Shown in pieces: positions 12,829 to 46,327 of a stretch of DNA of 64,000 bases. This DNA is from an uncultured Bacteroidota bacterium (GTDB lineage Bacteria > Bacteroidota > Bacteroidia > Bacteroidales > UBA12481), in NCBI GenBank assembly GCA_903851365.1, contig CAINOB010000059.1:1-64000 (forward strand), written 5' to 3'. The position numbers and the translations under genes were made by a program. Under the pieces are notes generated by a model. It had not been told where the DNA came from. It saw only the letters and a list, made by a program, of their open reading frames with translations, and did no database searches. Every line of letters starts with the position of its first letter. Positions within the stretch are counted from its first letter, which is position 1.

Positions 12829-12859
12829 GGGACGGGGTCCCGTTTTTCAACGGGATGAC
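12829..12859 (-). repeat. Palindromic repeat (copy A)
   Basis: gggacggggtcccgtttttcaacgggatgac. Confidence 0.85.
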
Positions 12860-13440: not shown

Positions 13441-13484
13441 GATCGAAGAAGAAGATCGGTGGACGAAAGAAAGATCGGCAGAGT
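13441..13484 (+). repeat. Heptad-type array directly after the slyD stop
   Basis: gatcgaagaagaagatcggtggacgaaagaaagatcggcagag, same words as the other heptad arrays. Confidence 0.8.
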
Positions 13485-13485
13485 T

Positions 13486-13516
13486 GTCATCCCCGCGAAG
13501 GCGGGGACCCCGTCCC
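13486..13516 (+). repeat. Palindromic repeat (copy B)
   Basis: gtcatccccgcgaaggcggggaccccgtccc. Confidence 0.95.
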
Positions 13517-14924: not shown

Positions 14925-14929
14925 ATCTT

Positions 14930-19843: not shown

Positions 19844-19891
19844 ATTATCAAATTATCAAATTGTCAAATTATCAAATTAGCACATTGGCTA
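19844..19891. repeat. Octamer tandem array (ATTATCAA-type) abutting/overlapping the prfB stop
   Basis: attatcaa|attatcaa|attgtcaa|attatcaa|attagcac|attggcta; prfB stop is 19889-19891. Confidence 0.9.
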
Positions 19892-22209: not shown

Positions 22210-23091
22210 ATGAAAAAGATATTGTCCCTATTAGTTGTCTGCGTTGCAATGCTGTCGTGCACGGAGCAAGTTACAAAACCCGATTTTACGTTTGCGTTTT
22301 TGACCGACATTCACATTACGCCGGACAAGAGCGCGCCGATTGGATTTCAGCAGGCCATTGACCATGTGAACAGTTCGAAAGTCGATTTTGTGATTACGGG
22401 CGGCGACCAGGTCATGGATGCCCTCAATAAATCGCGCGCCGGGGCCGATTCGCTGTATCAGCTGTACAGCAGCCTGATGAAGGGTTTTAAGATGCCGGTT
22501 CACAATACCGTTGGCAATCATGAGCTTTTTGCATTTTACAATAAATCCATCGACACCCTGGATCCGGACTATGGCGAGGGGATGTTTCGACGCTACTTTG
22601 GTAATCCATGGCAATCATTTGATTACAGAGGATGGCATTTCATTCTGCTTAAATCGATTGAGCAAACGCCTGACCGTCATTACGAAGGCAAGATCAATCC
22701 GGTGCAAATGGAATGGCTGAGGCAGGATCTGGCAAAAGTGGATGATAAAACGCCTATCGTGGTATCAGTTCATATACCACTTATCACCGCATACAACCAA
22801 TGGCAGGAGGGCGGTCAGCAGGTTAATGGTGCCGGCTCAGTGATCACGAACGGCAAAGCAGTGATGGACCTGCTTCGGAAGAAAAACCTGAAGCTGGTAC
22901 TGCAGGGACATCAGCATTATTATGAAGATCTGTTTATGGATGGAGTTCATTTCATTACCGGCGGGGCTGTTTCTGCCGGATGGTGGGGCGGCGCAATCGG
23001 CAAAATGGAAGAAGGATATATGCTGATCAAGGTCACTGGCGATAAGATGGAGACGGAGTATGTTGATTATGGTTGGAATGCGAGGAAGTGA
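22210..23091 (+). CDS. Metallophosphoesterase lipoprotein
   Basis: MLSCTEQ lipobox; FLTDIHI, ITGGDQVMD, VGNHE, LQGHQHYY motifs. Confidence 0.9.
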   Translation: MKKILSLLVVCVAMLSCTEQVTKPDFTFAFLTDIHITPDKSAPIGFQQAIDHVNSSKVDFVITGGDQVMDALNKSRAGADSLYQLYSSLMKGFKMPVHNTVGNHELFAFYNKSIDTLDPDYGEGMFRRYFGNPWQSFDYRGWHFILLKSIEQTPDRHYEGKINPVQMEWLRQDLAKVDDKTPIVVSVHIPLITAYNQWQEGGQQVNGAGSVITNGKAVMDLLRKKNLKLVLQGHQHYYEDLFMDGVHFITGGAVSAGWWGGAIGKMEEGYMLIKVTGDKMETEYVDYGWNARK

Positions 23092-23200
23092 CGGGTGACG
23101 GGTGACTGGTGACCGAAGAATCGTGACTCGTGACGCGGGACGCGTGACACGGAGGACGAAGAAGAAGATCGATAGACGCAGGAAAGACCGAAAGACGAGA
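23089..23200 (+). repeat. Heptad tandem array beginning at the stop codon of the preceding gene
   Basis: tgacggg|tgacggg|tgactgg|tgaccga|agaatcg|tgactcg|tgacgcg|ggacgcg|tgacacg|gaggacg|aagaaga|agatcga|tagacgc...; TGA at 23089, 23096, 23103, 23110, 23124, 23131, 23145, all in 7-nt register. Confidence 0.95.
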
Positions 23201-23264
23201 TTCGATGGCCAATGTTGAATTTTGAAAATACAGAATGAAGTTTACCGAATCTGATCGAAGAAGT

Positions 23265-23295
23265 GTCATCCCGGCGAAGGCCGGGACCCCGTCCC
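23265..23295 (+). repeat. Palindromic repeat (copy C)
   Basis: gtcatcccggcgaaggccgggaccccgtccc. Confidence 0.95.
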
Positions 23296-23315
23296 TAACC
23301 ACGAAATCAAGCAGA

Positions 23316-23347
23316 ATCTGAAACCCTGAAACTCTGAAACATGAAAC
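23316..23347 (+). repeat. Octamer array containing the start codon of the next gene
   Basis: atctgaaa|ccctgaaa|ctctgaaa|catgaaac; ATG start at 23341. Confidence 0.8.
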
Positions 23348-25557
23348 ACTTAATCTCATTAACCTTCCTGGTCATCCTGCTTACTGCCTGCCAGCCAGGC
23401 GATCAGCAGACAAACATTTTCCGGATACCCGGAATGTCAGTCAATGTTAGCGGTTCGGGTGAGATTTCCCGGATTGAGTTTACCGGAAAAAATCAGGCCC
23501 GTGAGGTCCGGGCCCTAAGCAGTCTGGCCGATTGCAAGCCCGAAGGAAAGATCAGGGTAATACGCAAGGTTACGCAGATCAGCTTTAAACAAAAATGGGT
23601 GTCACTCTCAACAGGAAATTCCTGCACACTTACCAACCGGTTCAGTCCGGGAAAAGGCAGTGTAAAATGGGAAATCGAGATTACCGGCATTAAAGGTACC
23701 TGGTCAACACCCATTGAGACGAGGTTGATATATCCCGATTCTGCGAAAGCTAAAATTTGGACCGCCTGGGGAGATCCGCGATTAGGTACCATACGTAAAC
23801 AATCCGCTGAGCAGATAGCATCGCTGGGTATTTTACCTTCGGATATTACAGGCAACTGGAGCGACCCGCTGGTACCGATCCCATTTGTCAATGATACTCT
23901 CTGGTACGGCGCTCCGCCATATAGTTATAATAATCCTCGATTAGGTTTCTGCCCCTTTCAGGGCAACCTTTTCGGCATTCCAATGGTATCGGTACTGGAA
24001 GAAGGATCGGGTTTCGGCATGAGCGTGATCTTATCGCCCGAGGATACCCTCCTCGATCTGAATTTGCGCACCAGTACTTCAGGGGAATTGGTTTTCTCAA
24101 GGGAATATAACAGGATATCAGCAGGCAAAACCATTCATTTTTCGATGGATATTGTCGCCCACGAAGCCAGCTGGCGAGGCGGATTGCGCTGGATGACAGA
24201 AAATTATCCCGGATATTTCAACCCGAATATTGAACTCGCAGATCAGATTGCTGGAACCGGGGCCTATTCATCGCTCGAAACGGCGTTTGATCTGAATAAG
24301 ATGAAAAAGATGGCGTTCGGAGTCAACTGGAAGGCCAGCTTCGATTTTCCATACATGGGAATGTTTATTCCTCCTGTTTTAACTGATACAACCCGCTGGC
24401 CGAGATTTGGCGGCGGCATCACATCTATCAGGGATATGCAAGTATATGCTGCAAAAATGAAAAGCCAGGGATTTCATGTGCTGAGCTATTTTAACGTAAC
24501 CGAATTCGGGGCCGGAATCACGGACCCTGCTCCACCCGCTAAAATAGTGGCAGCGCAGGATCTCTGGCGAAATGCCGACAATTTTTTATACGGGAAACTG
24601 GCCGATGCGATCCTTCACGTGCCAGTGGCAGTATCAAAAGAAAAACTCGCATTCTATCCAAAGTCCAGGCCAAACGGGCCCTATTTCACCTGGGGCAACG
24701 GGATCATCATGGATCCGGGCGAGCCGGTTTATCAGGAATATTTAATGGACCAGGCCAGAAAACATATCGAGAAAATCCCTGATGCAGAGGGAATCTGCAT
24801 CGACAGGATGGATTGGCTCAGGATGTATAACGAGCAGCGCGATGACCAGGTGAGTTGGTTCGGCAATAAGCCTACCCGGTCGCTCCTGATCTCCTGGCAC
24901 AGTCTGCTTAACCAGCTCGGGCCGCTGATGCACAAGGCCGGAAAAGCAATCTTTATCAACAATCATGATAAGCGCATTGATCTTCTCAAACAGACCGACG
25001 GATTTTTTGATGAATTCACTTATGGCGGATCACCATTGAACCTGACGGCGCTTATGGGGGTTCGGAGGCCGGTGCTGGGCTGGACGAGTGAGGAAAAAAA
25101 TCTGAGGCCCGATCCCGATGCATTCTTCCAGCGATATCTTTACTTGGGAGTCTATCCGATGGCCCCGTTCCCCGGCAATGATCATTCCTTGCTGCCAAGT
25201 GAATGGGTGGACAAGCAGTATCTCGATTATGGCCCGATGCTGCAGACCCTGAAGGGTAAAAAGTGGGTTCTGGAACCGGATTGCATCTTGGCGGAAGGCA
25301 AATCGGCCAAAGTAAATTTATTTAAAACTCACGACGGTTGGGTGATTCCGGTTGTTTTTGGACCCAAAGAAGGATCTGTTAACCTGATTATCAAGAAGGT
25401 GGTTGGAATGAATGGAACGCTCCGGGCGGAGGTCCTTTACCCGGGAACCGATAAGCCGACGGAGATCGCGATTAACCAGGCGGCTGATGTGATCAGGCTT
25501 GCCGTACCTTTACACAGAGGATGTGCGATAGTGAGGCTTGTGACAGGTGACAGGTGA
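23341..25557 (+). CDS. Putative TIM-barrel glycosidase lipoprotein
   Basis: LLTACQPG lipobox; GICIDRMDWLRMYNEQRDDQVSWFG, FINNHDKRIDLLKQTDGFFDEFTYGG, barrel-like. Confidence 0.55.
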   Translation: MKHLISLTFLVILLTACQPGDQQTNIFRIPGMSVNVSGSGEISRIEFTGKNQAREVRALSSLADCKPEGKIRVIRKVTQISFKQKWVSLSTGNSCTLTNRFSPGKGSVKWEIEITGIKGTWSTPIETRLIYPDSAKAKIWTAWGDPRLGTIRKQSAEQIASLGILPSDITGNWSDPLVPIPFVNDTLWYGAPPYSYNNPRLGFCPFQGNLFGIPMVSVLEEGSGFGMSVILSPEDTLLDLNLRTSTSGELVFSREYNRISAGKTIHFSMDIVAHEASWRGGLRWMTENYPGYFNPNIELADQIAGTGAYSSLETAFDLNKMKKMAFGVNWKASFDFPYMGMFIPPVLTDTTRWPRFGGGITSIRDMQVYAAKMKSQGFHVLSYFNVTEFGAGITDPAPPAKIVAAQDLWRNADNFLYGKLADAILHVPVAVSKEKLAFYPKSRPNGPYFTWGNGIIMDPGEPVYQEYLMDQARKHIEKIPDAEGICIDRMDWLRMYNEQRDDQVSWFGNKPTRSLLISWHSLLNQLGPLMHKAGKAIFINNHDKRIDLLKQTDGFFDEFTYGGSPLNLTALMGVRRPVLGWTSEEKNLRPDPDAFFQRYLYLGVYPMAPFPGNDHSLLPSEWVDKQYLDYGPMLQTLKGKKWVLEPDCILAEGKSAKVNLFKTHDGWVIPVVFGPKEGSVNLIIKKVVGMNGTLRAEVLYPGTDKPTEIAINQAADVIRLAVPLHRGCAIVRLVTGDR

Positions 25558-25624
25558 CGGGTGACCGAAGAAGAAGACCGGTAGACGGAAGACGATAGAC
25601 GAAAGACAGTAGGCAGAAGAAAAT
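25541..25624 (+). repeat. Heptad tandem array overlapping the 3' end of the preceding CDS
   Basis: tgacagg|tgacagg|tgacggg|tgaccga|agaagaa|gaccggt|agacgga|agacgat|agacgaa|agacagt|aggcaga; stop TGA at 25555. Confidence 0.95.
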
Positions 25625-25725
25625 AGTTGATAAGAAATAGCCAGGTTATTCGTTAGTAAGGGAAAGAAATTTTTACTTTGTATCACCAACCGGATTCATA
25701 TTTAGGCTAATATTTTAAGGCATAG

Positions 25726-28700
25726 ATGATAAGAAGAATCATTCTATATTTTGTAGTTGCCGTACTGTTTATATCCTGTAAAAATCATAGTAGCAATGAC
25801 TTAGCTGCTCTGGTTGATCCGTTTATAGGGACAGATGCTACTGGAAACACTTTTCCCGGAGCTTCCATGCCATTTGGTATGGTGCAATTGAGTCCGGATA
25901 CCTATAACAACGGGTGTTGCAGCGGATACCATTACAAGGATTCTGCGATCGTTGGTTTTTCACACACACATTTAAGCGGTACCGGGGTAGCTGATTTCGG
26001 GGACATTCTGGTGATGCCTGCTGTCGGTGAGCGCCGTCCAGCGTCAAAGTACAAGCATTCCAGCGAAGATGCATCACCTGGGTATTACAGCGTTTATCTG
26101 GAAGATTACAAGATTAAGGCCGAACTGACAGCTTCAAAACGAGCCGGGTTGCATCGATATACTTTCCCCAAATCCGATAAGAGCAGTATCCTCTTCGATC
26201 TGGAACATGGAATCATGAGTGGGGATAAACCACTGGATGATTGCTATATCCGTATAGTAAGCCCTAATGAAATTGAGGGTCTACGGCATTCCCAGGGCTG
26301 GGCCTCCGATCAGTATGTATACTTTGTGGCACGCTTCTCGGAATCCTTTACTAATCCCACGCTGATTCTCAACGGAACGACTGATGCTGACAGTAAGGAA
26401 ATCAAAGGAAAATCAGTAAAAGCGATACTCAATTATAAAACCAAGCAAGGCAAGCAGATATTAGTCAAAGTGGCCTTATCGGCAGTGAGTGCGGAAGGTG
26501 CACGACATAACCTCGACAGCGAAATCTCCGGATGGGATTTTGAAAAGATTGTAAACAGGGCCGAAAATGCCTGGAACGCTGAATTAGGGAAGATAAAAGT
26601 TACCGGGGGAAGCGGAGATCAGCAAAAAATATTCTACACCGCACTTTATCATTCCCTGCTGACACCGAATCTTTATTCGGATGCAGACGGGCAATACCGT
26701 GGAATGGACCACCTGGTTTATAATGGCGAAGGTCACGACTATTATACCGTGTTTTCTCTTTGGGATACTTATCGCGCTGTACATCCGCTGTTTAATCTGA
26801 TTGAGCGCGATCGGAACCAGGACTTCATCAAAACAATGATCAAGCAGTATGAGCAGACCGGTTTGCTGCCTGTTTGGGAACTGGCGGGGTGCGAAAATAA
26901 CTGTATGATCGGTTACCATGCGGTGCCTGTAATTGCAGACGCAATATTGAAAGGGTATAAGGATTTCGATGTCGATAAGGCTTATGAGGCTATGCTGGCC
27001 AGTGGATCGCAGAGTACCGAGGGGATTGATGCCTACCGAAAGTTCCAGTTTCTGCCGAAGGAATTATCCACCAATTCAGTATCCAAGGCTCTCGAATATT
27101 CCTACGATGACTGGTGCATCGCCCAGGTGGCCAAAACATTGGGAAAAACAGACGATTACAAGGAATACATCAGGAGGTCGCAGTATTCGCTGAACCAATT
27201 TGATGCTTCCTCCGGGTTGATGAGACCACGTTATTCTGATGGCCGCTGGCTCACCCCATTTGATCCTTTTAAAGTTTCGATGCTCGATCAGGGTGATTAC
27301 ACCGAGGCAAATGCCTGGCAGTATAGTTTTTATGTTCCCCAAAACATCCCTGAACTCATCAGGCTTTCAGGCGGCGACAAACCCTTTATTCAGAAGCTCG
27401 ATACTTTTTTCACCGTAAAATCGAAAAATAAAATTAGTGTCTCCGATTTCGAAGGGATTTTCGGACAGTATGCTCACGGCAACGAACCAAGTCATCATAT
27501 GCCCTACCTGTACAATTATGCGGGTGCTGCCTGGAAAACACAGGAGGTGGTAAGAAAGGCAATGAATGAGTTCTATAAAGCCACTCCGGATGGGCTTTGC
27601 GGCAATGATGACTGCGGACAGTTATCGGCATGGTATGTTTTCAGCGCCCTTGGATTTTACCCGGTGTGTCCGGGACAGGACCAATATGTGATCGGCAGTC
27701 CGATTTTCGACAAAGCCGAAATCACCTTGTCTAACGGCAAAAAATTCACGATCAAAGCACAAAGCGTCAGTAACCGGAATCAATATATCCAGTCAGCATC
27801 GCTTAACGGTAAGGAATATCCGAAATCATACTTAACCTTCACGGATATCGCCAAAGGCGGTGAAATAGCATTGAAAATGGGATCGGACCCGGAAAAGAGC
27901 TGGGGCCTGACTACCTCGAACCGGCCATCGGCACTCCCGATTGAACCTGAAAATTTGCTCAAACCACTGGGAACCGAAAAACTATTTATGCCTTCGATCA
28001 ATGCTGGCGGCACGATGTTCCGGGGGCAGACAAACGTTGAGCTTGCATGTATATCACAAGGGGCTGAAATTCATTATACGACAAACGGAACCGAACCACG
28101 GATAACCTCAGAACTCTATTCGAAACCATTTACGATTTACCGAACCTCGCGTATCCGGGCAAAAGCCTATAAAGCAGGAATTAACGAAAGCGAAACGGCA
28201 GCCGCCGACTTTTATAAAAGCTCGATCGACCCGCAATCACCGCGGCTTAAGGTTACTTATATGGCACCCCCGTTTGAGCGGGATTACCTTGGTAGGAAGA
28301 CTGATGGCAGCTATTCTCCGAACTTTAAGGCCGGTGGAATGATGGCCCTGGTCGACGGCAAAACAGGAAGTGCCGATTATACCGATGGCAAGTGGCAGGG
28401 GTTTGAAGGCAAAGACATGGAAGTGGTGATCGATTTAGGTCGCGAAGTACCGGTTTGGCGTATCACAGCAAGTTTTCTGCAAAGCCTTTCCGTCTGGATT
28501 TTTCACCCTGTAGAAATCAGCTTTTATATCTCCACCGACGGCGAAGATTATAAAATGATGAGCGTAACTGATAATTATCCTGACCGTGCAACGATCAATG
28601 ACGGGGTAAAATTCTTTGAGGTACTGATTTTTGGAGCGCCGGCAAGGTACATCAAGGTGAATGCAAAAAATATCGGACTCTGCCCTCCCTGGCATCAGGG

Positions 28701-28749
28701 TTCAGGAGGCGCGGCGTGGCTCTTCTGCGACGAAGTTATAGTGGAATAG
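25726..28749 (+). CDS. GH92 family alpha-mannosidase-like lipoprotein with chitobiase-C-like and F5/8-type C domains
   Basis: VDPFIGTDATGNTFPGASMPFGMVQLSPDT, GYHYKDSAIVGFSHTHLSGTG, GNDDCGQLSAWYVFSALGFYPVCPG; C-terminal AEIHYTTNGTEP and discoidin-like domain. Confidence 0.95.
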   Translation: MIRRIILYFVVAVLFISCKNHSSNDLAALVDPFIGTDATGNTFPGASMPFGMVQLSPDTYNNGCCSGYHYKDSAIVGFSHTHLSGTGVADFGDILVMPAVGERRPASKYKHSSEDASPGYYSVYLEDYKIKAELTASKRAGLHRYTFPKSDKSSILFDLEHGIMSGDKPLDDCYIRIVSPNEIEGLRHSQGWASDQYVYFVARFSESFTNPTLILNGTTDADSKEIKGKSVKAILNYKTKQGKQILVKVALSAVSAEGARHNLDSEISGWDFEKIVNRAENAWNAELGKIKVTGGSGDQQKIFYTALYHSLLTPNLYSDADGQYRGMDHLVYNGEGHDYYTVFSLWDTYRAVHPLFNLIERDRNQDFIKTMIKQYEQTGLLPVWELAGCENNCMIGYHAVPVIADAILKGYKDFDVDKAYEAMLASGSQSTEGIDAYRKFQFLPKELSTNSVSKALEYSYDDWCIAQVAKTLGKTDDYKEYIRRSQYSLNQFDASSGLMRPRYSDGRWLTPFDPFKVSMLDQGDYTEANAWQYSFYVPQNIPELIRLSGGDKPFIQKLDTFFTVKSKNKISVSDFEGIFGQYAHGNEPSHHMPYLYNYAGAAWKTQEVVRKAMNEFYKATPDGLCGNDDCGQLSAWYVFSALGFYPVCPGQDQYVIGSPIFDKAEITLSNGKKFTIKAQSVSNRNQYIQSASLNGKEYPKSYLTFTDIAKGGEIALKMGSDPEKSWGLTTSNRPSALPIEPENLLKPLGTEKLFMPSINAGGTMFRGQTNVELACISQGAEIHYTTNGTEPRITSELYSKPFTIYRTSRIRAKAYKAGINESETAAADFYKSSIDPQSPRLKVTYMAPPFERDYLGRKTDGSYSPNFKAGGMMALVDGKTGSADYTDGKWQGFEGKDMEVVIDLGREVPVWRITASFLQSLSVWIFHPVEISFYISTDGEDYKMMSVTDNYPDRATINDGVKFFEVLIFGAPARYIKVNAKNIGLCPPWHQGSGGAAWLFCDEVIVE

Positions 28750-28794
28750 TTGGGTTTTAGGTTTTAAACCACAGAGTCACCGAGATTCACAGAG

Positions 28795-28892
28795 CTCCGT
28801 CTACTGCAGACTGAGTACTGCCAACTCTTCCGGTCTTCTTCTTCGTCCACCGATCTTTCTTTCGTCTATCGGTCTTCTGTCTTCCGTCTCCT
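28795..28892 (-). repeat. Heptad-type array between convergent genes
   Basis: ctccgtctactgcagactgagtactgccaactcttccggtcttcttcttcgtccaccgatctttctttcgtctatcggtcttctgtcttccgtctcct; mostly 7-nt spacing. Confidence 0.85.
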
Positions 28893-28894
28893 GT

Positions 28895-30682
28895 TTATCC
28901 TAATTCAGCTTCCTTCTTATCCAGCTCTTTTAGGATTTCGTCGACTTTACCCTGCAGCTGTGTGAGCTTACCTGAGAATAATTCCTTGTAATATTGTATG
29001 CCTTCGCGTATTCCCTGCTGAAATGATTCGAGCGTTTTCTTCTCTTTCGGGTTAGCCGGATTTAAGCGTGGAGTCAGACGGTTTTTCAGGTAATCAACAT
29101 ATATGCTCAGCTCCTTAACAAACATGTGGGGCCTGTCGGTTCGCTCAATAACATTGTTTTTACCATAGATATGCCCTACCATTTCCGGCAGGCTTACTTC
29201 CTTCGTAAAATAGACCAGGTTTGGTCCGGGGCATACCGAAACACCTGCTCCTTCTGCTCTGTGATTCAAATCATTAGCCAATAATGAAGAGGTACCCAGA
29301 CCGACGCAGATACAGGATTTCTCTACGATTGCATCATACTTTGCCTTATATTCCGACTCGCTCAGACCCAAATGATCCAGCTGATCGATCTTCAACTGCT
29401 GATACTCACGTGATGCCGTGCAAATGGCTTTATCGGTAAATTCGGTATCAAGACTGGCATATTGTTTAGGACAAGGACTTCCCGGAGCGCCTTTGACGAT
29501 TCTGGCCTCTTTTTCCACGTCTTTCGAATTGCCGCGGAGTGAATAGAATGGCACTCCCAACGGTGAAATTCCACTCAGGTAAACATCTTCCTCTGTGGAT
29601 TCTATTAATTGCTGACGCGTTTCATGATCCATGGTTACTGCTTCAGGTACCAGCAAGAAAGGTGACCCCCAGCCCACTGAGTCCAGACCATAATAATCCA
29701 TCAAAAATTCCTGTTCATCGGCAGTACCCACGCCTCCCTGGGCAGTAATGCGCATTTCAGGGATTTCGGCTGGCACTGGCCGGTTTCGTAAAACAAGGGC
29801 CTGCGACCAGATTTCGTAAACTTCTCGTGTAAGTTCCTCCCTCGAATTTTTAAAGGCTTCAAGAATCGGTCCGAGCAGGGCACCATCAGTGGCAAAAGCA
29901 TGTCCACCGCAATTTAATCCGGATTCAACGCGATATTCTGATACCCAGATCCCCTTCTTTGCCAGGTATTTTCCCTGGATAATGGCTGACCGGTAATCGC
30001 TAACTTTCAGTACAATTTTCTTTTTCAGGTAACCAGTCTGATCCGGATAGAAATCATCGAAATTCTCCATGTAAGCATACAATCTCGGATTCATCCCCGC
30101 CGACAGAACGATGGATGATTCAAGATTACTCTCGGCAAATCCGCGGAGGGCGGCATGTGCATCATTAAATTCAGCTGGCAGGGTTTCGCCCTGCAGGTAA
30201 TTTTCCTTATCGAGCTTGGTCATGATATTCACATCGATGGAACCCGGGCGAAGACGATTATGTGCCCACTTCCTGATTTCCTGGATGCTGGCTTTGGCGG
30301 CAATGAGTTCATTAAATTCCGTCTTGAGAGTAGAAAAATCGGGAAGCATTTCGATATAACGGTCAAACTCATCCTTCTTTTCAATAGCTGCCTGCCTGAT
30401 CTCTTCGAATTTCTCTTTTACCATGGTATCAACCAGGTTAAGATATGAAGTTATCCGCTTGGCCCTAAAGTCTTTAATCTTTCTGGATATAGGTTGAAAA
30501 GGAATATTCAATTTGTGGCTGTAGAATTCTCTCATCTTCTCCATCAGTATATCATCAACCAATGAAATAACTGAAGAAATACCATAAGGAGCCACCCTCA
30601 CAGCGGTATCTATGGAGTATCCAATGCCCATCACAGGGATATGAAATGTATGAGGATTACCTAAGTGGTTCATTTTGTGCAA
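28895..30682 (-). CDS. Conserved uncharacterised protein, possibly a nitronate-monooxygenase/PfaD-like TIM barrel
   Basis: HIPVMGIGYSIDTAVRVAPYGISSVISLVDD, ESGLNCGGHAFATDG, ITAQGGVGTADEQEFLMDYYGLDSVGWGSPFLLVPEAV. Family assignment is inference only. Confidence 0.5.
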   Translation of the reverse strand: MHKMNHLGNPHTFHIPVMGIGYSIDTAVRVAPYGISSVISLVDDILMEKMREFYSHKLNIPFQPISRKIKDFRAKRITSYLNLVDTMVKEKFEEIRQAAIEKKDEFDRYIEMLPDFSTLKTEFNELIAAKASIQEIRKWAHNRLRPGSIDVNIMTKLDKENYLQGETLPAEFNDAHAALRGFAESNLESSIVLSAGMNPRLYAYMENFDDFYPDQTGYLKKKIVLKVSDYRSAIIQGKYLAKKGIWVSEYRVESGLNCGGHAFATDGALLGPILEAFKNSREELTREVYEIWSQALVLRNRPVPAEIPEMRITAQGGVGTADEQEFLMDYYGLDSVGWGSPFLLVPEAVTMDHETRQQLIESTEEDVYLSGISPLGVPFYSLRGNSKDVEKEARIVKGAPGSPCPKQYASLDTEFTDKAICTASREYQQLKIDQLDHLGLSESEYKAKYDAIVEKSCICVGLGTSSLLANDLNHRAEGAGVSVCPGPNLVYFTKEVSLPEMVGHIYGKNNVIERTDRPHMFVKELSIYVDYLKNRLTPRLNPANPKEKKTLESFQQGIREGIQYYKELFSGKLTQLQGKVDEILKELDKKEAELG

Positions 30683-30741
30683 CTTTTAAAATAATGTGTA
30701 AATGTACGGCGATTTTAACTGTGATAGTCATCACAGCTGAA

Positions 30742-30832
30742 ATAAGGCAAAGGGCAGGAAGGCAGGAAGGCAAATGGAAAGCTTCAAGGCAGAAGGCAGA
30801 AGGCAAAAGGGAAGGAAGAAGGAATAAGGAAG
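30742..30832. repeat. GGCA/GAAGG-type short-period array
   Basis: aaggcaaagggcaggaaggcaggaaggcaaatgg...caaggcagaaggcagaaggcaaaaggg. Confidence 0.8.
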
Positions 30833-30837
30833 AAGTG

Positions 30838-30845
30838 TATCTTTG
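30838..30845 (+). promoter_or_regulatory. Candidate Bacteroidota -7 element upstream of the phosphofructokinase
   Basis: TATCTTTG (TAnnTTTG) 28 nt upstream of ATG 30874; no clear -33 TTTG. Confidence 0.4.
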
Positions 30846-30873
30846 GGGAAGGATTAACGTATCAGGAAATTTT

Positions 30874-32193
30874 ATGAAAGCAGCAGACTTTGAAATCAAA
30901 GAGCTCGGGCGGGCAAACAGCCGGTCGCCGCTGAATGATGAAGGCCGATGTAAGCCACTTTTCGGTTTTGTTACCGACCATGACAGGATTCTTTACGAAA
31001 CATCGCTGCTGAAGTTTGAGAAATTCCGTGAAAGCGGTCAGATCCCAATTTCATTTGAAAAGGCTGGTCCCAGGGAATTCGTTTACTTTCAACCTTCGAA
31101 AACAAAGATCGGAATTGTTACCTGTGGCGGACTTTGTCCCGGACTGAACAATGTGATCCGCAGTATCGTGATGGCTGCGCATTATCGTTATGGAGTGAAA
31201 AACATCATTGGTTTTCAATATGGTTATGAGGGCCTTAATCCTGATCTTGATCATGCGGTTATCGACCTGACTCCTGAAGTGGTTAGTCAGATTCATCATA
31301 TCGGAGGATCCATTCTGGGTTCATCCAGGGGGAATCAGGACGTTTCGAGAATGGTGGACACGCTGGAAATGATGAACATCAATATTCTTTTTACCATTGG
31401 TGGTGATGGCACACTGAGGGGTGCGCATGCCATCCATGAAGAGATCACACGCAGGGGATTGAAAATCGCTGTTGCGGGAATCCCTAAAACTATTGACAAC
31501 GACATTAACCTGATTGATAAATCTTTCGGTTTTGAAACGGCTTTTACCATTGCCAATGAGGTTATCCGGAATGCACATAATGAAGCCTCGGGAGCCTATA
31601 ATGGCATTGCATTAGTAAAATTGATGGGAAGGAATTCGGGATTTATCGCTGCACATGCGGCCTTATCCATTCAGGAAGTAAATTTCGTTCTGGTTCCGGA
31701 AATGTCATTTTCGCTGGATGGCCCCGACGGATTCATTGAGGTTCTTCGTAAGCGGCTGGCAACGAGGCATCATGCATTGGTTGTGGTTGCAGAAGGTGCC
31801 GGTCAGGATTTCTTCAAAGGTGAAGCGATGGAAAAAGATCCATCGGGGAATATCAAGTTAAAAGATATCGGACTATATCTGAAGGACAAGATTTCCGAAA
31901 AATTCAAAGCAGACAAATTTCCATTTGCGCTTCGTTATATCGATCCCAGCTATATTATCCGAAGTGCGCCTGCCAACGCCAATGACAGCAAGTTCTGCAG
32001 CCTGCTGGCACAAAATGCAGTACACGCTGTGATGGCCGGTAAAACTGATTTCGTTGCCGGTCACTGGAACAACGAGTTCACCCTATTGCCGATTCCTGTC
32101 GCCGTGGCCAAGCAGAAAAAAATCGATATCAACGGCGAGCTGTGGTGGAATGTGCTTGAAGCAACGGGTCAGCCAGCTATGAAGGAATGCTGA
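30874..32193 (+). CDS. 6-phosphofructokinase
   Basis: GIVTCGGLCPGLNNVIRSIV, GGSILGSSRGNQD, TIGGDGTLRGA, GIPKTIDNDINLIDKSFGFETAF. True start likely 30874 (MKAADFEIKELGRAN), not 30646. Confidence 0.94.
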   Translation: MKAADFEIKELGRANSRSPLNDEGRCKPLFGFVTDHDRILYETSLLKFEKFRESGQIPISFEKAGPREFVYFQPSKTKIGIVTCGGLCPGLNNVIRSIVMAAHYRYGVKNIIGFQYGYEGLNPDLDHAVIDLTPEVVSQIHHIGGSILGSSRGNQDVSRMVDTLEMMNINILFTIGGDGTLRGAHAIHEEITRRGLKIAVAGIPKTIDNDINLIDKSFGFETAFTIANEVIRNAHNEASGAYNGIALVKLMGRNSGFIAAHAALSIQEVNFVLVPEMSFSLDGPDGFIEVLRKRLATRHHALVVVAEGAGQDFFKGEAMEKDPSGNIKLKDIGLYLKDKISEKFKADKFPFALRYIDPSYIIRSAPANANDSKFCSLLAQNAVHAVMAGKTDFVAGHWNNEFTLLPIPVAVAKQKKIDINGELWWNVLEATGQPAMKEC

Positions 32194-33286
32194 TCGCTTC
32201 TTCCAATTCTTTCGTTAGCTGATCAACCAGTTCCTTTACCGAAACTATTTCGGTACATCGCCATGCGTTTTCACCTGCAAAGACAAATGCCTCGAGCAGT
32301 TGACCTTTTGATGCATCGGCCAGTACTTTGGCAATACAATACGGGGCAACGCGGGGATTGCATGATCGCAGGCAATGATGCGGGCATTTGAAAGGAATAG
32401 TTTCGCCATTCATTGCCCTTACAGTGAATTCATTCCGGATAACACGTCCAGGTAAACCAACCGGACTTTTTATTATGGCGATATCATCTTTTGTCGCAGT
32501 CAGGTATGCCTTTTTAAAATCATCATGAACATCACATTCATCGGTACACACAAACCGGGTAGCCATCTGGACGCCTGATGCACCCAGCTTTAAGAACCTG
32601 GCAATGTCATTTCCATCCCAGATTCCGCCGGCAGCAATTACAGGAATAGTTTCTTCGACCCCCTGAATATATTCAACCAGTTCGGACACCAATTCTTCCA
32701 GTGTTCGTGCCGTGTGGTTATTGATTTCGTCATAAGAAAAACCAAGATGTCCGCCAGCCATCGGCCCTTCCAGAACAACAGCATCAGGAACCCGGTTATA
32801 GTTCTGTTTCCATTTCTTGTAGATGATATTAAAGGCCCTGGCTGAAGAAACAATTGGAATTAATTTTATATCGGACCCGGCAGTAAGCTTTGGCAAATCC
32901 ATGGGAAGCCCCGATCCGCAAATGATCATATCGACCTTTTCCTCAACACAAACTTTTACCAATTCCTCGTAGTTCGATAGCACCACCATCACGTTGACAC
33001 CGATGATGCCATTGGAAAGGGACTTGGCTTTTCTGATCTCAGACCGTAATGCAATATTGTTCAACTCAACAAATTCCGATTTCGCTGCGTCCTCGTAAAG
33101 TCCGAGTCCTACACTCGCAATAATCCCGGCACATCCTTCATTTGCAACAGCTGAAGCCAGTCTTGATCCTGAAACCCTGACGCCCATTCCGCCCTGAATT
33201 ATGGGTGGATAGATATCGAGATTACCGATTTTTAAGGAAGGTATATTTGAGGTTGTCATGTTTTCAATTTTAACTATAACCGCCAA
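32177..33286 (-). CDS. Nitronate monooxygenase (2-nitropropane dioxygenase family)
   Basis: PPIIQGGMGVRVSGSRLASAVANEGCAGIIASVG, PVIAAGGIWDGNDIARFLKLGASGVQMATRFVCTDE. The start may be internal (MTTSNIPSLKIG). Confidence 0.9.
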   Translation of the reverse strand: MAVIVKIENMTTSNIPSLKIGNLDIYPPIIQGGMGVRVSGSRLASAVANEGCAGIIASVGLGLYEDAAKSEFVELNNIALRSEIRKAKSLSNGIIGVNVMVVLSNYEELVKVCVEEKVDMIICGSGLPMDLPKLTAGSDIKLIPIVSSARAFNIIYKKWKQNYNRVPDAVVLEGPMAGGHLGFSYDEINNHTARTLEELVSELVEYIQGVEETIPVIAAGGIWDGNDIARFLKLGASGVQMATRFVCTDECDVHDDFKKAYLTATKDDIAIIKSPVGLPGRVIRNEFTVRAMNGETIPFKCPHHCLRSCNPRVAPYCIAKVLADASKGQLLEAFVFAGENAWRCTEIVSVKELVDQLTKELEEAISIPS

Positions 33287-33331
33287 ATTAAGCGATTTGT
33301 TTTTACATTTATCACAAATAAAGATTTAGAC

Positions 33332-33859
33332 ATGGCAGAAATATTGGGTATTGGTTCAAGAATAAAACACCCTCAAATGGGTAAAGGAGTGATTGTTCAG
33401 GTGCGGTCGGACGCCTATGAAATCGGATTTATCGAGTATGGCGTAAAGCTGATTAAGCGGGATTATGAGGGTTTGGAAGTGCTTGAAGCGGTAGAAACAC
33501 CCGAGGATCTCACCTCTTTTGAAGATATGGAAAAAAGCCTGATCAGGGTACTCACCCGTTTCAGCGATATCCAGCAAACGGTTCAGATCGGCCAAAAATG
33601 GACCGGTGGAAAGATGGTTTTATATCCGGGTGATAAATCTTTAAAAGAGAAAGAAATTCCGATCGAGACATTTTTCCATAAAATAGTAATGATCCGCGAT
33701 CGCGTCAGGGTGATGGAACAGCGCATCAATGCCAGCAATCTGACCGATGAGGAAAAGGTTGACCTCGAGCAATATATCACCAGGATTTACGGCAGTCTTA
33801 CGACCTTCAATGTTTTATTCAAGAACAAGGAAGACCAGTTTACCGGGGCTTCTTCATAG
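33332..33859 (+). CDS. Conserved hypothetical protein with N-terminal SH3/Tudor-like segment
   Basis: GIGSRIKHPQMGKGVIVQVRSDAYEIGFIEYGVKLIKRDYEGLEVLE; complete ORF with coding-like composition. Confidence 0.6.
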   Translation: MAEILGIGSRIKHPQMGKGVIVQVRSDAYEIGFIEYGVKLIKRDYEGLEVLEAVETPEDLTSFEDMEKSLIRVLTRFSDIQQTVQIGQKWTGGKMVLYPGDKSLKEKEIPIETFFHKIVMIRDRVRVMEQRINASNLTDEEKVDLEQYITRIYGSLTTFNVLFKNKEDQFTGASS

Positions 33860-33870
33860 TTTCGCGGTTT

Positions 33871-33901
33871 GGGACGGGGTTCCCGCCTCCGCGGGAATGA
33901 C
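33871..33901 (-). repeat. Palindromic repeat (copy D)
   Basis: gggacggggttcccgcctccgcgggaatgac. Confidence 0.95.
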
Positions 33902-33921
33902 AACTCGCTGAGGGTAATTCC

Positions 33922-34005
33922 TCCGTGTCACGCGTTTCGCGTTTCGGGTCACATCTTCCGATCTTCTTCTTCGTCCCCCGATCTTCTTTGTCGGTCACCC
34001 TGTCA
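33922..34005 (-). repeat. Heptad array overlapping the stop of the DUF2961 gene
   Basis: tccgtgt|cacgcgt|ttcgcgt|ttcgggt|cacatct|tccgatc|ttcttct|tcgtccc|ccgatct|tctttgt|cggtcac|cctgtca; stop at 33995-33997. Confidence 0.92.
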
Positions 34006-35611
34006 CCTGCTTGGCCGAATTAGTTCCGAGGGAAGGCCGTTTTTTGTACCAGCGCTGCATCAGCCTGAAGGAATCGAAACCCAAAGCGTTACCTTCGGAA
34101 TTCGGTGATTTACCGACCGATTCAAACCGGATAGTATGCTTGCCGGTTTTTAGGGTCGCACTACCGAGGTAGTAATCATAAACGTTCAACTTCTCTGAAT
34201 AAAAATTCAATATTCTTGGTTCCACTTTCGGATCCTTGAAATCAAAGTCGATAGTCATTGGCACTCTGGCAATTATGTTCCCATCAATTAACAGCTTGTA
34301 TTTACCATAATTACATTCATGGCTCATTTTCAATAGCAACCCCTGATACTCCTCCTTATTTATCATAAAATCGGCTTCCATCCAGGCTTCATTGGTTGAT
34401 GGTGTAAATAGAATCTGGTGATTGCCGGTCCAGTCAAAACCCTCCTCCAATTTCACGGTTCCTGGGGAGTGCCTAATCGAACCAAACATATCCTTTGCTT
34501 CGATAACAGTTTCAAGGTTAGGAAGCATTCGCTCATCATGGGTTGGCACCATAGCAAACCGTTTAGGCTGCCCCAGCTGATACCAGAAAGCTACGGTAGC
34601 AATATCATCCTCCCGCTCAACATGTCCATCCACTTTTCCAGTTGCCGATTCGTCGGCAGAGATCCATCCGGTATGTTCAATTTCCATGCGGAAGGATTTT
34701 GTAAACCTCAATGGATCCTGTACGTGCCAGCGATAAAGGGTATATTTTGCCCCGAGGTCTTCTTCCCCTTTGCTCATGTAGGAACAACCGGAATAAAGAT
34801 TGAGATTTTCAGTAAATCCCCACGCGCTGAGGAAATAATCCTCGGTACCGGTACCCCATGTTGAAGGATCTTTCTCGCCATCGACATAGTATTTGATATC
34901 CCCTTCACCAAACCAATAGGGGCTGCGCGAGCGGACCGACATCACCGTGCCGACATAATGGCCCTTGCCGCTGATTTCGGCAATAAGATAATCGTGACCC
35001 AACTGTTCCGGAAATTCCTGCCGGTACTGAGCGCAAAAGTATGCTGTGTTTTTTGGAAGATTTTTATACTCTGTATAGTCAAACTGATAATAAAAACTGC
35101 GTGCCGCAATTTTACCATCATTCGTTACCGTTATTTTTGCCGCCTTGTAAAAAGGCATCTGCCAATAGCAGTTGTACCCATCGCCCCCTTCTACCAATAC
35201 CTGAGCCGACCTGACCTCTTGCCGTAGTCCGAATCCCGAAGCAAAAAAATCACCAATCGGGGCCTCCACAGCTGGCTGGGAATCATTATCCCAATACATC
35301 CGGATTATAAGATCAGCCGGTGTCGCCGAGCCTCCTTTCTCGAGCCAGTTTGGTTTGGCATCATTAAATGTCAGCCAGATATGGTTAATGATTCCAGCAC
35401 CTTTAGCATCAAATATCACCGCAGTTTCACCTGGTTTGATATACTGAATGCGATCAGCATTGCTGCCTCCCGGAGCATGCGAACTTATTGCTCTCGACCT
35501 GCCATCCCGTATCTTTGCCAACCCCAAATCCGGGGCGGTAGAAGGATTACTGCAGGAAAACAGAAGTGTCGCCAAAGACATACCAAACAGCGCAGAACGG
35601 AGGTTTTTCAT
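33995..35611 (-). CDS. DUF2961 (GH172-like) lipoprotein
   Basis: LLFSCSNP lipobox; DRIQYIKPGETAVIFDAKGAGIINHIWLTF, EAPIGDFFASGFG, DGEKDPSTWGTGTEDYFLSAWGF. Confidence 0.92.
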   Translation of the reverse strand: MKNLRSALFGMSLATLLFSCSNPSTAPDLGLAKIRDGRSRAISSHAPGGSNADRIQYIKPGETAVIFDAKGAGIINHIWLTFNDAKPNWLEKGGSATPADLIIRMYWDNDSQPAVEAPIGDFFASGFGLRQEVRSAQVLVEGGDGYNCYWQMPFYKAAKITVTNDGKIAARSFYYQFDYTEYKNLPKNTAYFCAQYRQEFPEQLGHDYLIAEISGKGHYVGTVMSVRSRSPYWFGEGDIKYYVDGEKDPSTWGTGTEDYFLSAWGFTENLNLYSGCSYMSKGEEDLGAKYTLYRWHVQDPLRFTKSFRMEIEHTGWISADESATGKVDGHVEREDDIATVAFWYQLGQPKRFAMVPTHDERMLPNLETVIEAKDMFGSIRHSPGTVKLEEGFDWTGNHQILFTPSTNEAWMEADFMINKEEYQGLLLKMSHECNYGKYKLLIDGNIIARVPMTIDFDFKDPKVEPRILNFYSEKLNVYDYYLGSATLKTGKHTIRFESVGKSPNSEGNALGFDSFRLMQRWYKKRPSLGTNSAKQVTG

Positions 35612-35656
35612 AGTTAGGTTATTAGGGTAAAAAGTTCCAGCTTAGATTCGTGGCTT

Positions 35657-35687
35657 GCGACGGGGTCCCGGCTTTCGCCGGGATGAC
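35657..35687 (-). repeat. Palindromic repeat (copy E)
   Basis: gcgacggggtcccggctttcgccgggatgac. Confidence 0.95.
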
Positions 35688-35706
35688 AATGCTCCGAGGG
35701 CCATTT

Positions 35707-35783
35707 CTGCCGACTGCCGACTGCCTACTGCAGACTCTACCGGTCTTCTTTTTCGGTCACCCGTCACTTATCACCCGTCACTG
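35707..35783 (-). repeat. Heptad array (11 units in continuous register) overlapping the stop of the S15 peptidase gene
   Basis: ctgccga|ctgccga|ctgccta|ctgcaga|ctctacc|ggtcttc|tttttcg|gtcaccc|gtcactt|atcaccc|gtcactg; stop at 35778-35780. Confidence 0.95.
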
Positions 35784-37616
35784 TTTAACTGCTTTTGCAT
35801 ATGCATCCGGGCCCCCGATAATCGGCATGACCAGCGAGGTTGCATCCGCATCGACAGTCAGCTCAGTGCCTGGCTCGGGCCAGAGCGTAAAGTCACGGTC
35901 ACTGGAGAAAATCATTAATCCGATCTGTTTCCCGGCCGGGATAATCTGGTCGTCGGGCTCGAGATTAAAGGTCATCTCATAGAACTTTCCGGGTACCAGC
36001 GGTTCACTCTCTCTCAAAGATTTATAATTCTGAGGATCGGCCCATCCCCTGGTGATCAGGTTATCAGTGATTTTGGCATTTCTGGCACCATTCCAAGGCA
36101 ATTCCACCAGATACACCGAAAGGTTGGCTGCTGGTTTGCTACATGCTAACCTGATGGTAATTGACGAGGTTCCGGAGAGGTGAACGTCTTCCTTAAGAAC
36201 TGGTGAAAGGTATATCAGGCGATGATTGGTCCATTCGGCCTGAGCCAGTGCCGTGCCGTTAAAGGAAACGTTATCCACGAATTTCTCTTTCCCCTGATTT
36301 GGCAATTGCACTGTGGTAAGCTCACCTGCTTTAGGAGATCCTGGTTTCAGGTAAAATTTTACCGGTCGGGCTTCAGGATTTGGAAAATCAGCATAGGGAG
36401 TAGGCTTGCTGTTATCGTCGTTTTCACGAACGATATAAGCTTTAGGTCCTTCGAGACAATCATTTGCCACTCCAAAAAGGAAATGCGCAAACCACTTATT
36501 CATCATCTCTGCCGGCGGTTCCCCACCATGGCCGCCCTGGGTATAATAGATTTTTGTTGGTAAGCCTTTGGCTTTTACCGCCTCATATATCCTTAGACTA
36601 TGTTCCGGTACCACATTCCAGTCATTGAATCCGTGGGCCATCAGCATAGCACACTTCATAGGACCCAGGTCGTTTATATAATCACGTCCGGCCCAGAAAT
36701 CGTTATAATCCCCTTTAACGCGGTCCTGACCTTTTGCCATTTCACCATTTTTTACAACAGAATCGCAATAGGCACAATGCTCGGGGTTGCTGTGTATAAA
36801 ATCATATAATACATCGATATCTTCACCCAGATATCCACTTGGAGACCGGACCAGTCCGTTGGTACGATAATAATGATAATAGGAAGTATTCGGTGCAATA
36901 GGAATGATCACTTCAAGACCTGCAACACCAGTGGTAGCTGCAGCCAGTGGAAGTGTGCCATCATAGGAAGTACCTGTCATTCCCACCTTGCCAGTAGTCC
37001 AGTAAGCAAATACCTGCTCATTTCCATCAGGGGTAGTATAACCCTTGGCGCGACCGTTCAGCCAGTCGATGACAGCTTTCGGAGCCAGTGATTCGTTATC
37101 ACCTCCAACAGTCGGACAACCCTGGGAGAGACCTGTTCCCGGAGATTCGGAGTGAACAACGATATATCCCTGTGGAACCCAACGGCCAACCTGTGCCTTT
37201 GAGATTACAGGACGTTGTATCCGCGGAACGATCGGAGGAAACTTCTTGCGCGGCACGGGTACAGAATTCAGTTCCTGGCGCGGATTCCAGAAATACTGCA
37301 AGTCACTGGTCCCGGTACCTGAAAAGTATGGGCTGGATTCATAAATCACTGGAAGCTTCAGCTTTTCCGTTTCCGTCTGCTTTGGCCGGGTAACATCAAC
37401 GTGGACCCGATCGAGTTTACCGTCACCATCCGTATCAAAGCTTGTTTCAACCCACAGGTCCTGAATGATCCAATCGGCAGGAATATTAAATTCCGGAACT
37501 ACCTGGGTCATTCCATCGGCAAATACCGGCCCGGCTTTCTTTTGTGCCCTCGCCTCCTGAATTCCCAGGAAACTGACTGTCGCGGCGATCGCCATCAAGC
37601 AGAATACTTTCTTCAT
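35778..37616 (-). CDS. Xaa-Pro dipeptidyl-peptidase (S15 family, CocE/NonD-like)
   Basis: YIVVHSESPGTGLSQGCPTVGG, GKVGMTGTSYDGTLPLAAATTG, YYTQGGHGG, and C-terminal X-Pro DPP beta domain (LSGTSSITIRLACSKPAANLSVYLVEL). Confidence 0.92.
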   Translation of the reverse strand: MKKVFCLMAIAATVSFLGIQEARAQKKAGPVFADGMTQVVPEFNIPADWIIQDLWVETSFDTDGDGKLDRVHVDVTRPKQTETEKLKLPVIYESSPYFSGTGTSDLQYFWNPRQELNSVPVPRKKFPPIVPRIQRPVISKAQVGRWVPQGYIVVHSESPGTGLSQGCPTVGGDNESLAPKAVIDWLNGRAKGYTTPDGNEQVFAYWTTGKVGMTGTSYDGTLPLAAATTGVAGLEVIIPIAPNTSYYHYYRTNGLVRSPSGYLGEDIDVLYDFIHSNPEHCAYCDSVVKNGEMAKGQDRVKGDYNDFWAGRDYINDLGPMKCAMLMAHGFNDWNVVPEHSLRIYEAVKAKGLPTKIYYTQGGHGGEPPAEMMNKWFAHFLFGVANDCLEGPKAYIVRENDDNSKPTPYADFPNPEARPVKFYLKPGSPKAGELTTVQLPNQGKEKFVDNVSFNGTALAQAEWTNHRLIYLSPVLKEDVHLSGTSSITIRLACSKPAANLSVYLVELPWNGARNAKITDNLITRGWADPQNYKSLRESEPLVPGKFYEMTFNLEPDDQIIPAGKQIGLMIFSSDRDFTLWPEPGTELTVDADATSLVMPIIGGPDAYAKAVKQ

Positions 37617-39656: not shown

Positions 39657-39761
39657 TCTTCCGTGTTTCGCGTTTCGTGTCACGTCTTCCGATATTCTTC
39701 TTCGTCTATCGATCTTTCTTTCGTCACCCGTCACTTGTCACCCGTCACTTGTCACCCGTCA
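39657..39761 (-). repeat. Heptad array (15 units in continuous register) spanning the gap between two same-strand genes
   Basis: tcttccg|tgtttcg|cgtttcg|tgtcacg|tcttccg|atattct|tcttcgt|ctatcga|tctttct|ttcgtca|cccgtca|cttgtca|cccgtca|cttgtca|cccgtca. Confidence 0.95.
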
Positions 39762-45429: not shown

Positions 45430-46327
45430 GATATGCTCGAATCATACGGTCCTTGCCGTGAATATCTTTATGAAGTTCAACTTTGGAAAACCATTTGCGG
45501 AATATTTCTGCAGTCTCCTCACCTAAACGATCGTGAATCTCAACATATACCTGCCCGCCGGGATTAAGGTTTGATGCCGCAAATTCCGCTATAGCCTTAT
45601 AAAATAACAATGGGTTTGCGTCAGGAACAAACAGTGCCATTTCAGGCTCATACCTGATGACATGCAGATCCATCGACGTCATTTCGGATAAAGGCACATA
45701 GGGAGGGTTTGAGACGATGATATCAAAAGGTTTCGTGGTAAGGGACGGGGTCCCCGCCTCCGCGGGGATGACAAGGCTATCGAGGGTAAGGATGTTAAAG
45801 TAAGCTATTGATAGTTCGACCTTATTTATTCCGGCATTTTCTTTTGTGAGTTGGAGTACTGCCTCCGAAATATCTGAGGCAACCACTTCGGCATCCGGCA
45901 GGTGCTTTGCCAGGGCAATTGCAATTGCCCCGCTCCCGCATCCAATATCTAATATTCGCAACCTTTTCCCAACTGGCTCAACTTCACTTGTCATCCCGGC
46001 GAAAGTCGTAAGTATCCACTCAACGAGCTCTTCGGTTTCCCCTCTCGGAATCAGCACTCCTGATTTAACATTAATTTTTAGCCCATAAAATTCAGTCTCA
46101 CCAAGGATATACTGGATTGGCTCATGCATTTTCAACCGAACAATTATGTCTGAAAGATGACTTTCCTGATCTGGAGGAAGTTGATTCGCCTGATTCAGCC
46201 TAATCTGCACCCAGCTAAGCCCTGTTAGGGACTCCAGCACCAGCCGTCCAATCGAATCGATTTCGCGGACCGGATACAGACCGTTCAAAGCTTCAGCCAG
46301 GATTCTTTGGATATCCGAATATCTCAT
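45422..46327 (-). CDS. prmC: Peptide chain release factor N5-glutamine methyltransferase, carrying in-frame repeat insertions
   Basis: VLIPRGETEELVEWIL, ILDIGCGSGAIAIALAKHLPDAEVVASDIS, FDIIVSNPPYV. Confidence 0.95.
   Translation of the reverse strand: MRYSDIQRILAEALNGLYPVREIDSIGRLVLESLTGLSWVQIRLNQANQLPPDQESHLSDIIVRLKMHEPIQYILGETEFYGLKINVKSGVLIPRGETEELVEWILTTFAGMTSEVEPVGKRLRILDIGCGSGAIAIALAKHLPDAEVVASDISEAVLQLTKENAGINKVELSIAYFNILTLDSLVIPAEAGTPSLTTKPFDIIVSNPPYVPLSEMTSMDLHVIRYEPEMALFVPDANPLLFYKAIAEFAASNLNPGGQVYVEIHDRLGEETAEIFRKWFSKVELHKDIHGKDRMIRAYHG
45742..45772 (-). repeat. Palindromic repeat (copy F) inside prmC
   Basis: gggacggggtccccgcctccgcggggatgac, translated as VIPAEAGTPSL. Confidence 0.95.
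45990..46008 (+). repeat. Partial palindromic repeat (copy G) inside prmC, antisense
   Basis: gtcatcccggcgaaagtcg, read on the coding strand as TFAGMT. Confidence 0.75.

Follow-up and report, generated by a model that had tools for sequence, protein, structure and literature searches.

Repetitive extragenic palindromes (REPs) were sorted into two super-families by a survey of 2013 (PMC3733652). Those tagged by CGTC, with TGTC and CCTC variants, occur in five phyla, including Bacteroidetes; they are stated to lack a dedicated transposase, REP-associated tyrosine transposases (RAYTs) are not flanked by them, and it was suggested that their autonomous elements have been lost (PMC3733652). Heptamer repeats are a second kind of repeat of interest here, and it was noted earlier that the TAACTGA repeats of Beggiatoaceae provide stops in all three frames (PMC4679880). 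We describe a locus type in which the two meet. In a stretch of 64,000 nucleotides from an uncultured Bacteroidota bacterium (positions 1 to 64,000 of contig CAINOB010000059.1, assembly GCA_903851365.1; hereafter the window), simple-repeat arrays and a palindrome of the REP type stand in a fixed order on the same strand. We also found that small stand-alone genes of the GIY-YIG nuclease family are bracketed by matching REPs, in the same genus and in several other bacterial groups, and we think it probable that these nucleases spread the REP.

The source genome (G000) comprises 5.23 Mb in 130 contigs, designated by C and a number, the window being C59; its nearest named relatives are Bacteroidales metagenome-assembled genomes (MAGs; 98% and 81% in the phosphofructokinase). 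It was compared with seven congeneric genomes (G001-G007), the relatives being draft MAGs. Counts in G000 come from 60 stretches of 1.24 Mb in all (~24% of the genome), partly whole contigs and partly picked by motif hits, which hold 53 palindromes, 95 CGAAGAAGAAGAYCG units and 36 TGAC heptad arrays. Pooled counts add to this sample ~80 kb from each of three genomes (G006, G001 and G004). Genes were called by a codon-usage script.

Small Nuclease Genes between Matching REPs

A first-pass annotation of the window had read array and palindrome as one composite mobile or functional element, and had proposed a search for a RAYT or another transposase gene elsewhere in the genome. The RAYT part of this proposal failed: no palindrome was found within 1.5 kb on either side of the two Y1 transposase genes of G000, and a RAYT was rejected as the partner of the palindrome. 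These Y1 genes carry inverted repeats other than the palindrome nearby, and membership in the GTAG REP/RAYT system was rejected on this ground.

The search for another gene led to the nucleases. Indeed, the comparison of orthologous gaps revealed a GIY-YIG open frame of ~96 residues between two palindromes. G000 has three stand-alone genes of this type, one of them at C1:37563-37850 and all outside the window, which match PF01541 at 63, 60 and 53 bits (cut-off 22.6). All three, and those of G001 (two), G003, G004 (two) and G006, are located ~80-260 bp from a REP, and REPs stand on both sides of them except on C168 of G004, where two REPs lie on one side only. On C43 of G001, the palindromes have longer loops; they are missed by the motif and were seen in the orthologous-gap comparison. 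No REP was found near the 14 GIY-YIG genes of the genus that are of the UvrC or exonuclease type. REPs were not found in G002, G005 and G007 either; the first two have no stand-alone nuclease gene and the third has only a URI-type GIY-YIG gene. Moreover, the REP subtype located at the nuclease gene of G006 is present in 14 copies in that genome, in one copy each in G000 and G001, and in none of the five others, as expected if nuclease gene and REP belong together. The nearest solved structure to the nuclease is BH0048 (1zg2), a weak match; we take these stand-alone nucleases to be akin to the COG2827/YhbQ group.

Bracketing of small stand-alone GIY-YIG genes by matching REPs also occurs in other Bacteroidota and in Alpha-, Beta- and Gammaproteobacteria. 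Among 396 Bacteroidota genomes, 168 have a related nuclease gene and 57 a canonical REP; the gene is present in 53 of the 57 REP-positive genomes, vs. 168 of all 396 (Fisher p = 5.5e-18, without correction for relatedness). Near the 30 best-scoring Bacteroidota genes, which are the top matches by similarity to one protein, tagged hairpins reach a density of 2.58 per kb within 300 bp, compared with 0.06-0.46 farther out; the corresponding values for 14 records of plasmids or misfiled chromosomes are 4.17 near the gene and 0.12 farther out. Tagged hairpins stand on both sides of the gene in Azospirillum, Shinella, Sinorhizobium meliloti, Rhizobium, Sphingobium, Neisseria, and Aeromonas. The left REP of a gene is 92% identical to the right one, a value that falls to 48% when REPs are shuffled between genes (0/5000). 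In a test that uses no motif, 19 of the 30 Bacteroidota loci had a repeat of at least 14 bp shared by their left and right sides, as against none of 26 far windows and 9 of 300 mismatched pairs. Genome G416 has just two copies of a 24-base REP motif, one to the left and one to the right of the nuclease gene, and the only copy of this motif in G272 adjoins such a gene. Finally, in Azospirillum lipoferum (nuclease WP_014249537) the unit is inserted in the suf operon, between sufB and sufC, and five congeners have this operon without the unit.

A GIY-YIG gene flanked by GTCATTCTGAGTGAAACGAAGAATCTC repeats was also seen on a Planktothrix agardhii plasmid (L374, NZ_LR882964.1 17341-20616), between the gene of an MmeI-type restriction-modification enzyme and the DISARM gene drmA. 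In the literature that we searched, which covered few subscription journals, we found no description of a consistent REP bracketing of stand-alone GIY-YIG nucleases; this is weak evidence of novelty.

A Fixed Order with Conserved Junctions

Four composites had been recognized in the window, at 13441-13516 (+), 23089-23295 (+), 34005-33871 (-) and 35783-35657 (-), and all four are confirmed in position, order and strand. The agreement in 4 of 4 cases holds for this set, which was a chosen one: the window contains six palindromes, two of them without arrays (12829-12859 and 45742-45772), and three arrays without a palindrome. The CGAAGAAGAAGAYCG described between array and palindrome is present, as one part of a 20-bp tandem unit. 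Counts beyond the window, in the genome and in its relatives, upheld the order. Wherever a 20-bp unit lies within 200 bp of a palindrome in the G000 sample, it is upstream and on the same strand (13/13), and with a slightly wider palindrome motif all 22 such palindromes of the pooled sample are downstream of the unit on the same strand. In 10 of these 22, the neighbouring genes are opposed to the composite, divergent or convergent; therefore, attachment to a gene end does not account for the order. TGAC arrays are less strict and stand upstream on the same strand in 14 of 18 pooled cases.

The upstream modules recur in the order TGACGGG heptads, 20-bp units, optional modules, CCCTCGnAGAGTT, and palindrome, the optional modules being TGACRCG, AGACGGA or GCAGTCG heptads or half of an inverted-repeat element. 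The fullest locus, at 23089-23316, has nearly all of them in order, and one locus (C63 24704) deviates, with a 20-bp unit, heptads, and then the palindrome. The junction CGAAAGAAAGATCGATAGAGTT, or a close variant, is common to seven loci in three genomes, at which the unit-to-palindrome spacing is 41, 42, 42, 42, 42, 61 and 61 bp. When upstream flanks are compared in register with the palindrome, 14 pairs reach at least 65% identity, vs. a mean of 0.7 in shifted registers, some of the 14 being orthologous loci of two genomes. Hence, order and strand are not a coincidence, and copies have been made of several composite subtypes with conserved junctions. The earlier view that the repeats did not accumulate independently was right in this respect, and some composites were copied as units, as their shared junctions and spacing show. 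The palindrome has no replication-strand bias (25 to 23).

A Variant of the CGTC-Tagged REPs

An alignment of the 53 copies gives a palindromic unit of ~62 bp, CCCTCGnAGAGTTGTCATCCC(G/C)(G/C)CGAA(A/G)GC(C/G)GGGACCCCGTCCCTTACCACGAAATTA, twice the 31 bp initially assigned to it. TGTC stands directly before a GC-rich stem. The bases before the stem are TTGTC, with T at -1, GT and A invariant and C nearly so; this agrees with the unpaired CGTC, TGTC or CCTC tag of CGTC REPs. The stem has 7 bp plus an A-C mismatch at its base and the loop has four bases, CGTC REPs being described with a stem of 8-9 bp starting with A-T and a loop of 4-5. The CCA tail of these REPs is replaced by ACCCCGTCCCTTACCACGAAATTA after the stem; canonical tagged hairpins with a CCA tail occur in other Bacteroidota. 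From this alignment, the palindrome is best classed as a ~62-bp variant of the CGTC/TGTC-tagged REPs, and would be dRS3-like.

Five of the eight congeneric genomes have the palindrome tail, which was not found in any of 23 genomes farther away, and the tandem arrangement of the 20-bp unit, in which one unit directly follows another, is restricted to G000, G001 and G006. On G000 contigs C1, C30, C46 and C129, palindrome density is 14-52 per 100 kb, and it is 0-0.7 on long contigs such as C14 and C103.

Two other identities were considered and rejected. The palindromic unit has neither terminal inverted repeats nor a target-site duplication and is not a miniature inverted-repeat transposable element. 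An RNA element was rejected since Rfam gave no match of note in the window between 12500 and 46500 and two REP units, once folded, were no more stable than shuffles (z -0.2 and -1.3). Terminal inverted repeats are seen in a separate dispersed element, GAGATTCGAGGACCAATTTTGAATTTTGAAATT, which has no known transposase and sometimes encloses the palindrome; this is the case on C18 of G000, where inverted copies of GAGATTCGAGGACCAATTTTGAATTTTGAAATT surround palindromes at 31197-31334 and 56978-57103.

Heptad Arrays That Contain the Stop Codon

The arrays had been described as following the stop codons of genes. They do stand at stops, and more exactly contain them: in 14 of 18 TGAC arrays, the stop codon of the upstream gene in the same direction lies within the array, as its first, second or third TGA. 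With TGA in a 7-bp unit, each of the three frames meets a stop. Among tandem periods, 7 is the most frequent, with 39 mostly intergenic arrays in the 1.24 Mb, which fits heptamer simple-sequence repeats. Periods 7 and 8 dominate genome-wide (e.g., 12112-12151, 14929-14981 and 19844-19879 of the window), and the units are diverse, with heptads such as AAGGCAC, GTCGGCA, GGAAGAC and CCCGATA and octads such as CTGAAACC, AATTTGCT, AGGGCAAG and ATTAGCAC.

Modules Gained and Lost Separately

At orthologous gaps, palindrome presence differs between genomes and the modules are gained or lost separately. Behind the stop in the gap 23091|23341, heptads are found in G000, in G004, G005 and G006 (as TGACGRG) and in G007 (as TGACGGA); the palindrome is there in G000 only, and G006 keeps the flanking modules without it. 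The palindrome in the gap 33859|33995 is common to G000 and G001 and missing in G006. The gap 35611|35778 contains the full palindrome in G000 and, in G001, a GTCATCC hairpin that is different and diverged, and in the gap 39656|39745 G001 has a palindrome that is missing in G000.

Within 200 bp, 40 of the 53 palindromes of the G000 sample lack a 20-bp unit and 48 lack a TGAC array; most arrays have no palindrome. G004 has palindromes, and 20-bp tandem arrays were not found there; lone palindromes are also located inside genes. From this separate turnover and the wider distribution of the palindrome, we conclude that the palindrome also occurs apart from the arrays, and that it moves or disappears on its own. 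The idea of one composite mobile element is thus not supported. No clean target-site duplication was found at palindromes, their flanks being too repetitive.

In a GH92 gene, orthologous to 25726-28749 of the window, the palindrome sequence stands at the same loop position in G004 (L119 2809) and G001 (L237 ~700); this loop has a possible remnant in G007 and none in G000. The gene was rejected as a clean empty site, and gain cannot be told from loss there, because several relatives carry palindrome remnants in this loop. The features of the window are listed in Table 1. The protein of the gene at 45422-46327, in which a lone palindrome is translated, also has FAGMTSE, which looks like a second REP remnant.

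Table 1. REP, array and accessory modules located in the window
Feature	Position	Strand	Remarks
20-bp-unit array	13441..13485	+	Right behind the stop of gene 12958-13440 (GATCGAAGAAGAAGATCGGTGGACGAAAGAAAGATCGGCAGAGTT); unit-to-palindrome spacing 42 bp
Palindrome core, TGTC-tagged REP, CGCGAAGGCG subtype	13486..13516	+	Whole unit ~13466-13530
TGACGGG heptad array	23089..23116	+	Metallophosphatase gene 22210-23091 has its stop codon in the first TGA
CGAAGAATCG and second heptad type, TGACRCG	23117..23156	+	
20-bp-unit module	23157..23190	+	
Half of terminal-inverted-repeat element (GAGATTCGA..CCAATGTTGAATTTTGAAAATACAG..)	23191..23252	+	Retained in G006 without palindrome
Palindrome core	23265..23295	+	Missing at the orthologous gap in G001, G004, G005 and G006
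TGAC heptads and 20-bp unit, no palindrome	25541..25580	+	Gene 23341-25557 takes its stop codon (25555-25557) from the heptads
20-bp-unit module, no palindrome	28831..28845	-	
Palindrome core	33871..33901	-	Also at the orthologous site in G001; missing in G006
TGAC heptads and two 20-bp units	33959..34005	-	Behind DUF2961 gene; stop codon within heptads
Palindrome core	35657..35687	-	Full motif not found at the G001 orthologous site
TGAC heptads, 20-bp unit, then GCAGTCG heptads	35705..35783	-	Gene 35778-37616 has its stop within the TGAC heptads
TGAC heptads and 20-bp unit, no palindrome	39690..39761	-	G001 orthologue: heptads, then palindrome
Lone palindrome, GTTGAAAAAC subtype	12829..12859	-	
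Lone palindrome, in frame within gene 45422-46327	45742..45772	-	NPPY-motif methyltransferase gene, PrmC/HemK-like; encodes VIPAEAGTPS

How the Mosaic May Have Arisen

The explanation that we favour, and consider rather probable, is that of a polarised mosaic behind genes, with the REP downstream and simple-sequence modules upstream, in which the REP is spread by a cognate GIY-YIG nuclease. The REP would be a non-autonomous element acted on by this nuclease, as GTAG REPs are thought to be by RAYTs. The nuclease would recognize the tagged hairpin, cleavage would follow, and copying during repair or replication would occasionally take along neighbouring array DNA. Since array-junction-REP combinations would be copied together, their order would be inherited. 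Slippage would lengthen and shorten the arrays; where they overlap a gene end they may be retained, since any frame finds a stop in three TGA heptads. A wider proposal seems to us evenly balanced: the CGTC-class REPs in general (dRS3, RPE-4/6, and many others) may be non-autonomous partners of small stand-alone GIY-YIG nucleases and form, in several phyla, a second REP system parallel to RAYT/REPIN, with a nuclease that would recognize the tagged hairpin and drive its copying.

Several points weigh against the favoured explanation. Cleavage and movement of the REP are inferred, and no clean target-site duplication was found. The link from nuclease to composite is indirect, because no composite array stands beside the GIY-YIG genes, which lie beyond the window. 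Four REP-positive Bacteroidota genomes have no nuclease match at 1e-10, the association test takes no account of relatedness, a left/right repeat of 14 bp is missing at 11 of the 30 Bacteroidota loci, and the search at the Novosphingobium gene gave no tagged hairpin. In its A-C stem base, its missing CCA tail and its conserved 3' extension, the palindrome differs from the CGTC consensus. Finally, its orientation along genes is moderately biased (16 to 3 or 14 to 6, under two gene-calling settings).

The main rival to spread by a cognate nuclease, which we consider unlikely, holds that the GIY-YIG genes are selfish homing genes that landed in existing REPs, these being spread by something else. 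The weak matches of the nuclease protein to GIY-YIG homing and intron endonucleases agree with it, as does the occurrence of gene and REPs together in all fitting cases. However, it accounts poorly for the genomes in which the only copies of the REP motif are the two that flank the nuclease gene (G416) or the single one beside it (G272), for REP pairs that match at one gene and differ between genes, and for a REP type multiplied only in the genome that has the corresponding gene (G006). A coupling of any kind would be needless if the repeats accumulated independently at gene 3' ends, each at a characteristic distance from the stop codon. A preference for gene ends is seen in all modules, TGAC arrays abut stops, and the modules come and go separately; yet order and strand also hold in the 10 of 22 cases that gene anchoring does not predict, and junction spacing and sequence are conserved between loci. 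Independent accumulation is largely refuted by these two observations, and we regard it as improbable.

Quite improbable, too, is a single ancestral composite that moved whole and gave rise to variants by internal deletion. It would explain that one locus (23089-23316) holds nearly all modules and that most others are ordered subsets of it, but not the palindromes of G004, which has no 20-bp tandem arrays, those that stand alone in genes or beside nuclease genes, or the deviating order at C63 24704. Selection could also have maintained a cassette in 3' untranslated regions, made of a three-frame stop array and an RNA hairpin that ends or stabilises transcripts. The stops and the location of most palindromes downstream of genes are in line with such a cassette, which nevertheless appears very improbable: composites also occur opposed to or between genes, the two folded REP units were not more stable than their shuffles, and the sites differ between related species.

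Comparison with Known Systems

The bracketing by matching CGTC REPs makes the question of the missing transposase testable with one small protein and one hairpin, and the ordered mosaic is an example of simple repeats and a REP that are joined and copied together in intergenic gaps. The arrays resemble the TAACTGA heptamer repeats of Beggiatoaceae, Cyanobacteria and Bacteroidetes (MacGregor 2015, PMC4679880) in their 7-bp intergenic units, three-frame stops and overlap with gene ends; they differ by the many unit sequences in one genome and by the fixed order with a REP downstream. Long simple repeats (Mrazek et al. 2007), as far as they are described in PMC4679880, share the 7-bp intergenic arrays.

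With the CGTC REPs, including Neisseria dRS3 and Rickettsia RPE-4 and RPE-6 (Di Nocera, De Gregorio and Rocco 2013, PMC3733652), the palindrome has in common the TGTC tag, in part the form of the hairpin (a stem of ~8 bp and a 4-base loop), a location downstream of genes with some copies within genes, and the lack of RAYT flanking. On the contrary, its stem base is A-C and not A-T, it has no CCA tail, its conserved flanks extend over ~62 bp, it is ordered with arrays, and it brackets GIY-YIG genes, the word GIY-YIG being missing from PMC3733652. The nucleases are like other stand-alone members of PF01541 in their Pfam match above the curated cut-off and their ~95 residues. The likeness to RAYT/REPIN and its GTAG REPs is one of arrangement: a small nuclease gene is bracketed by inverted REPs of its own subtype, and copies are dispersed elsewhere. 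Here, however, the gene encodes a GIY-YIG nuclease and not a HUH tyrosine transposase, and the tag is CGTC or TGTC instead of GTAG.

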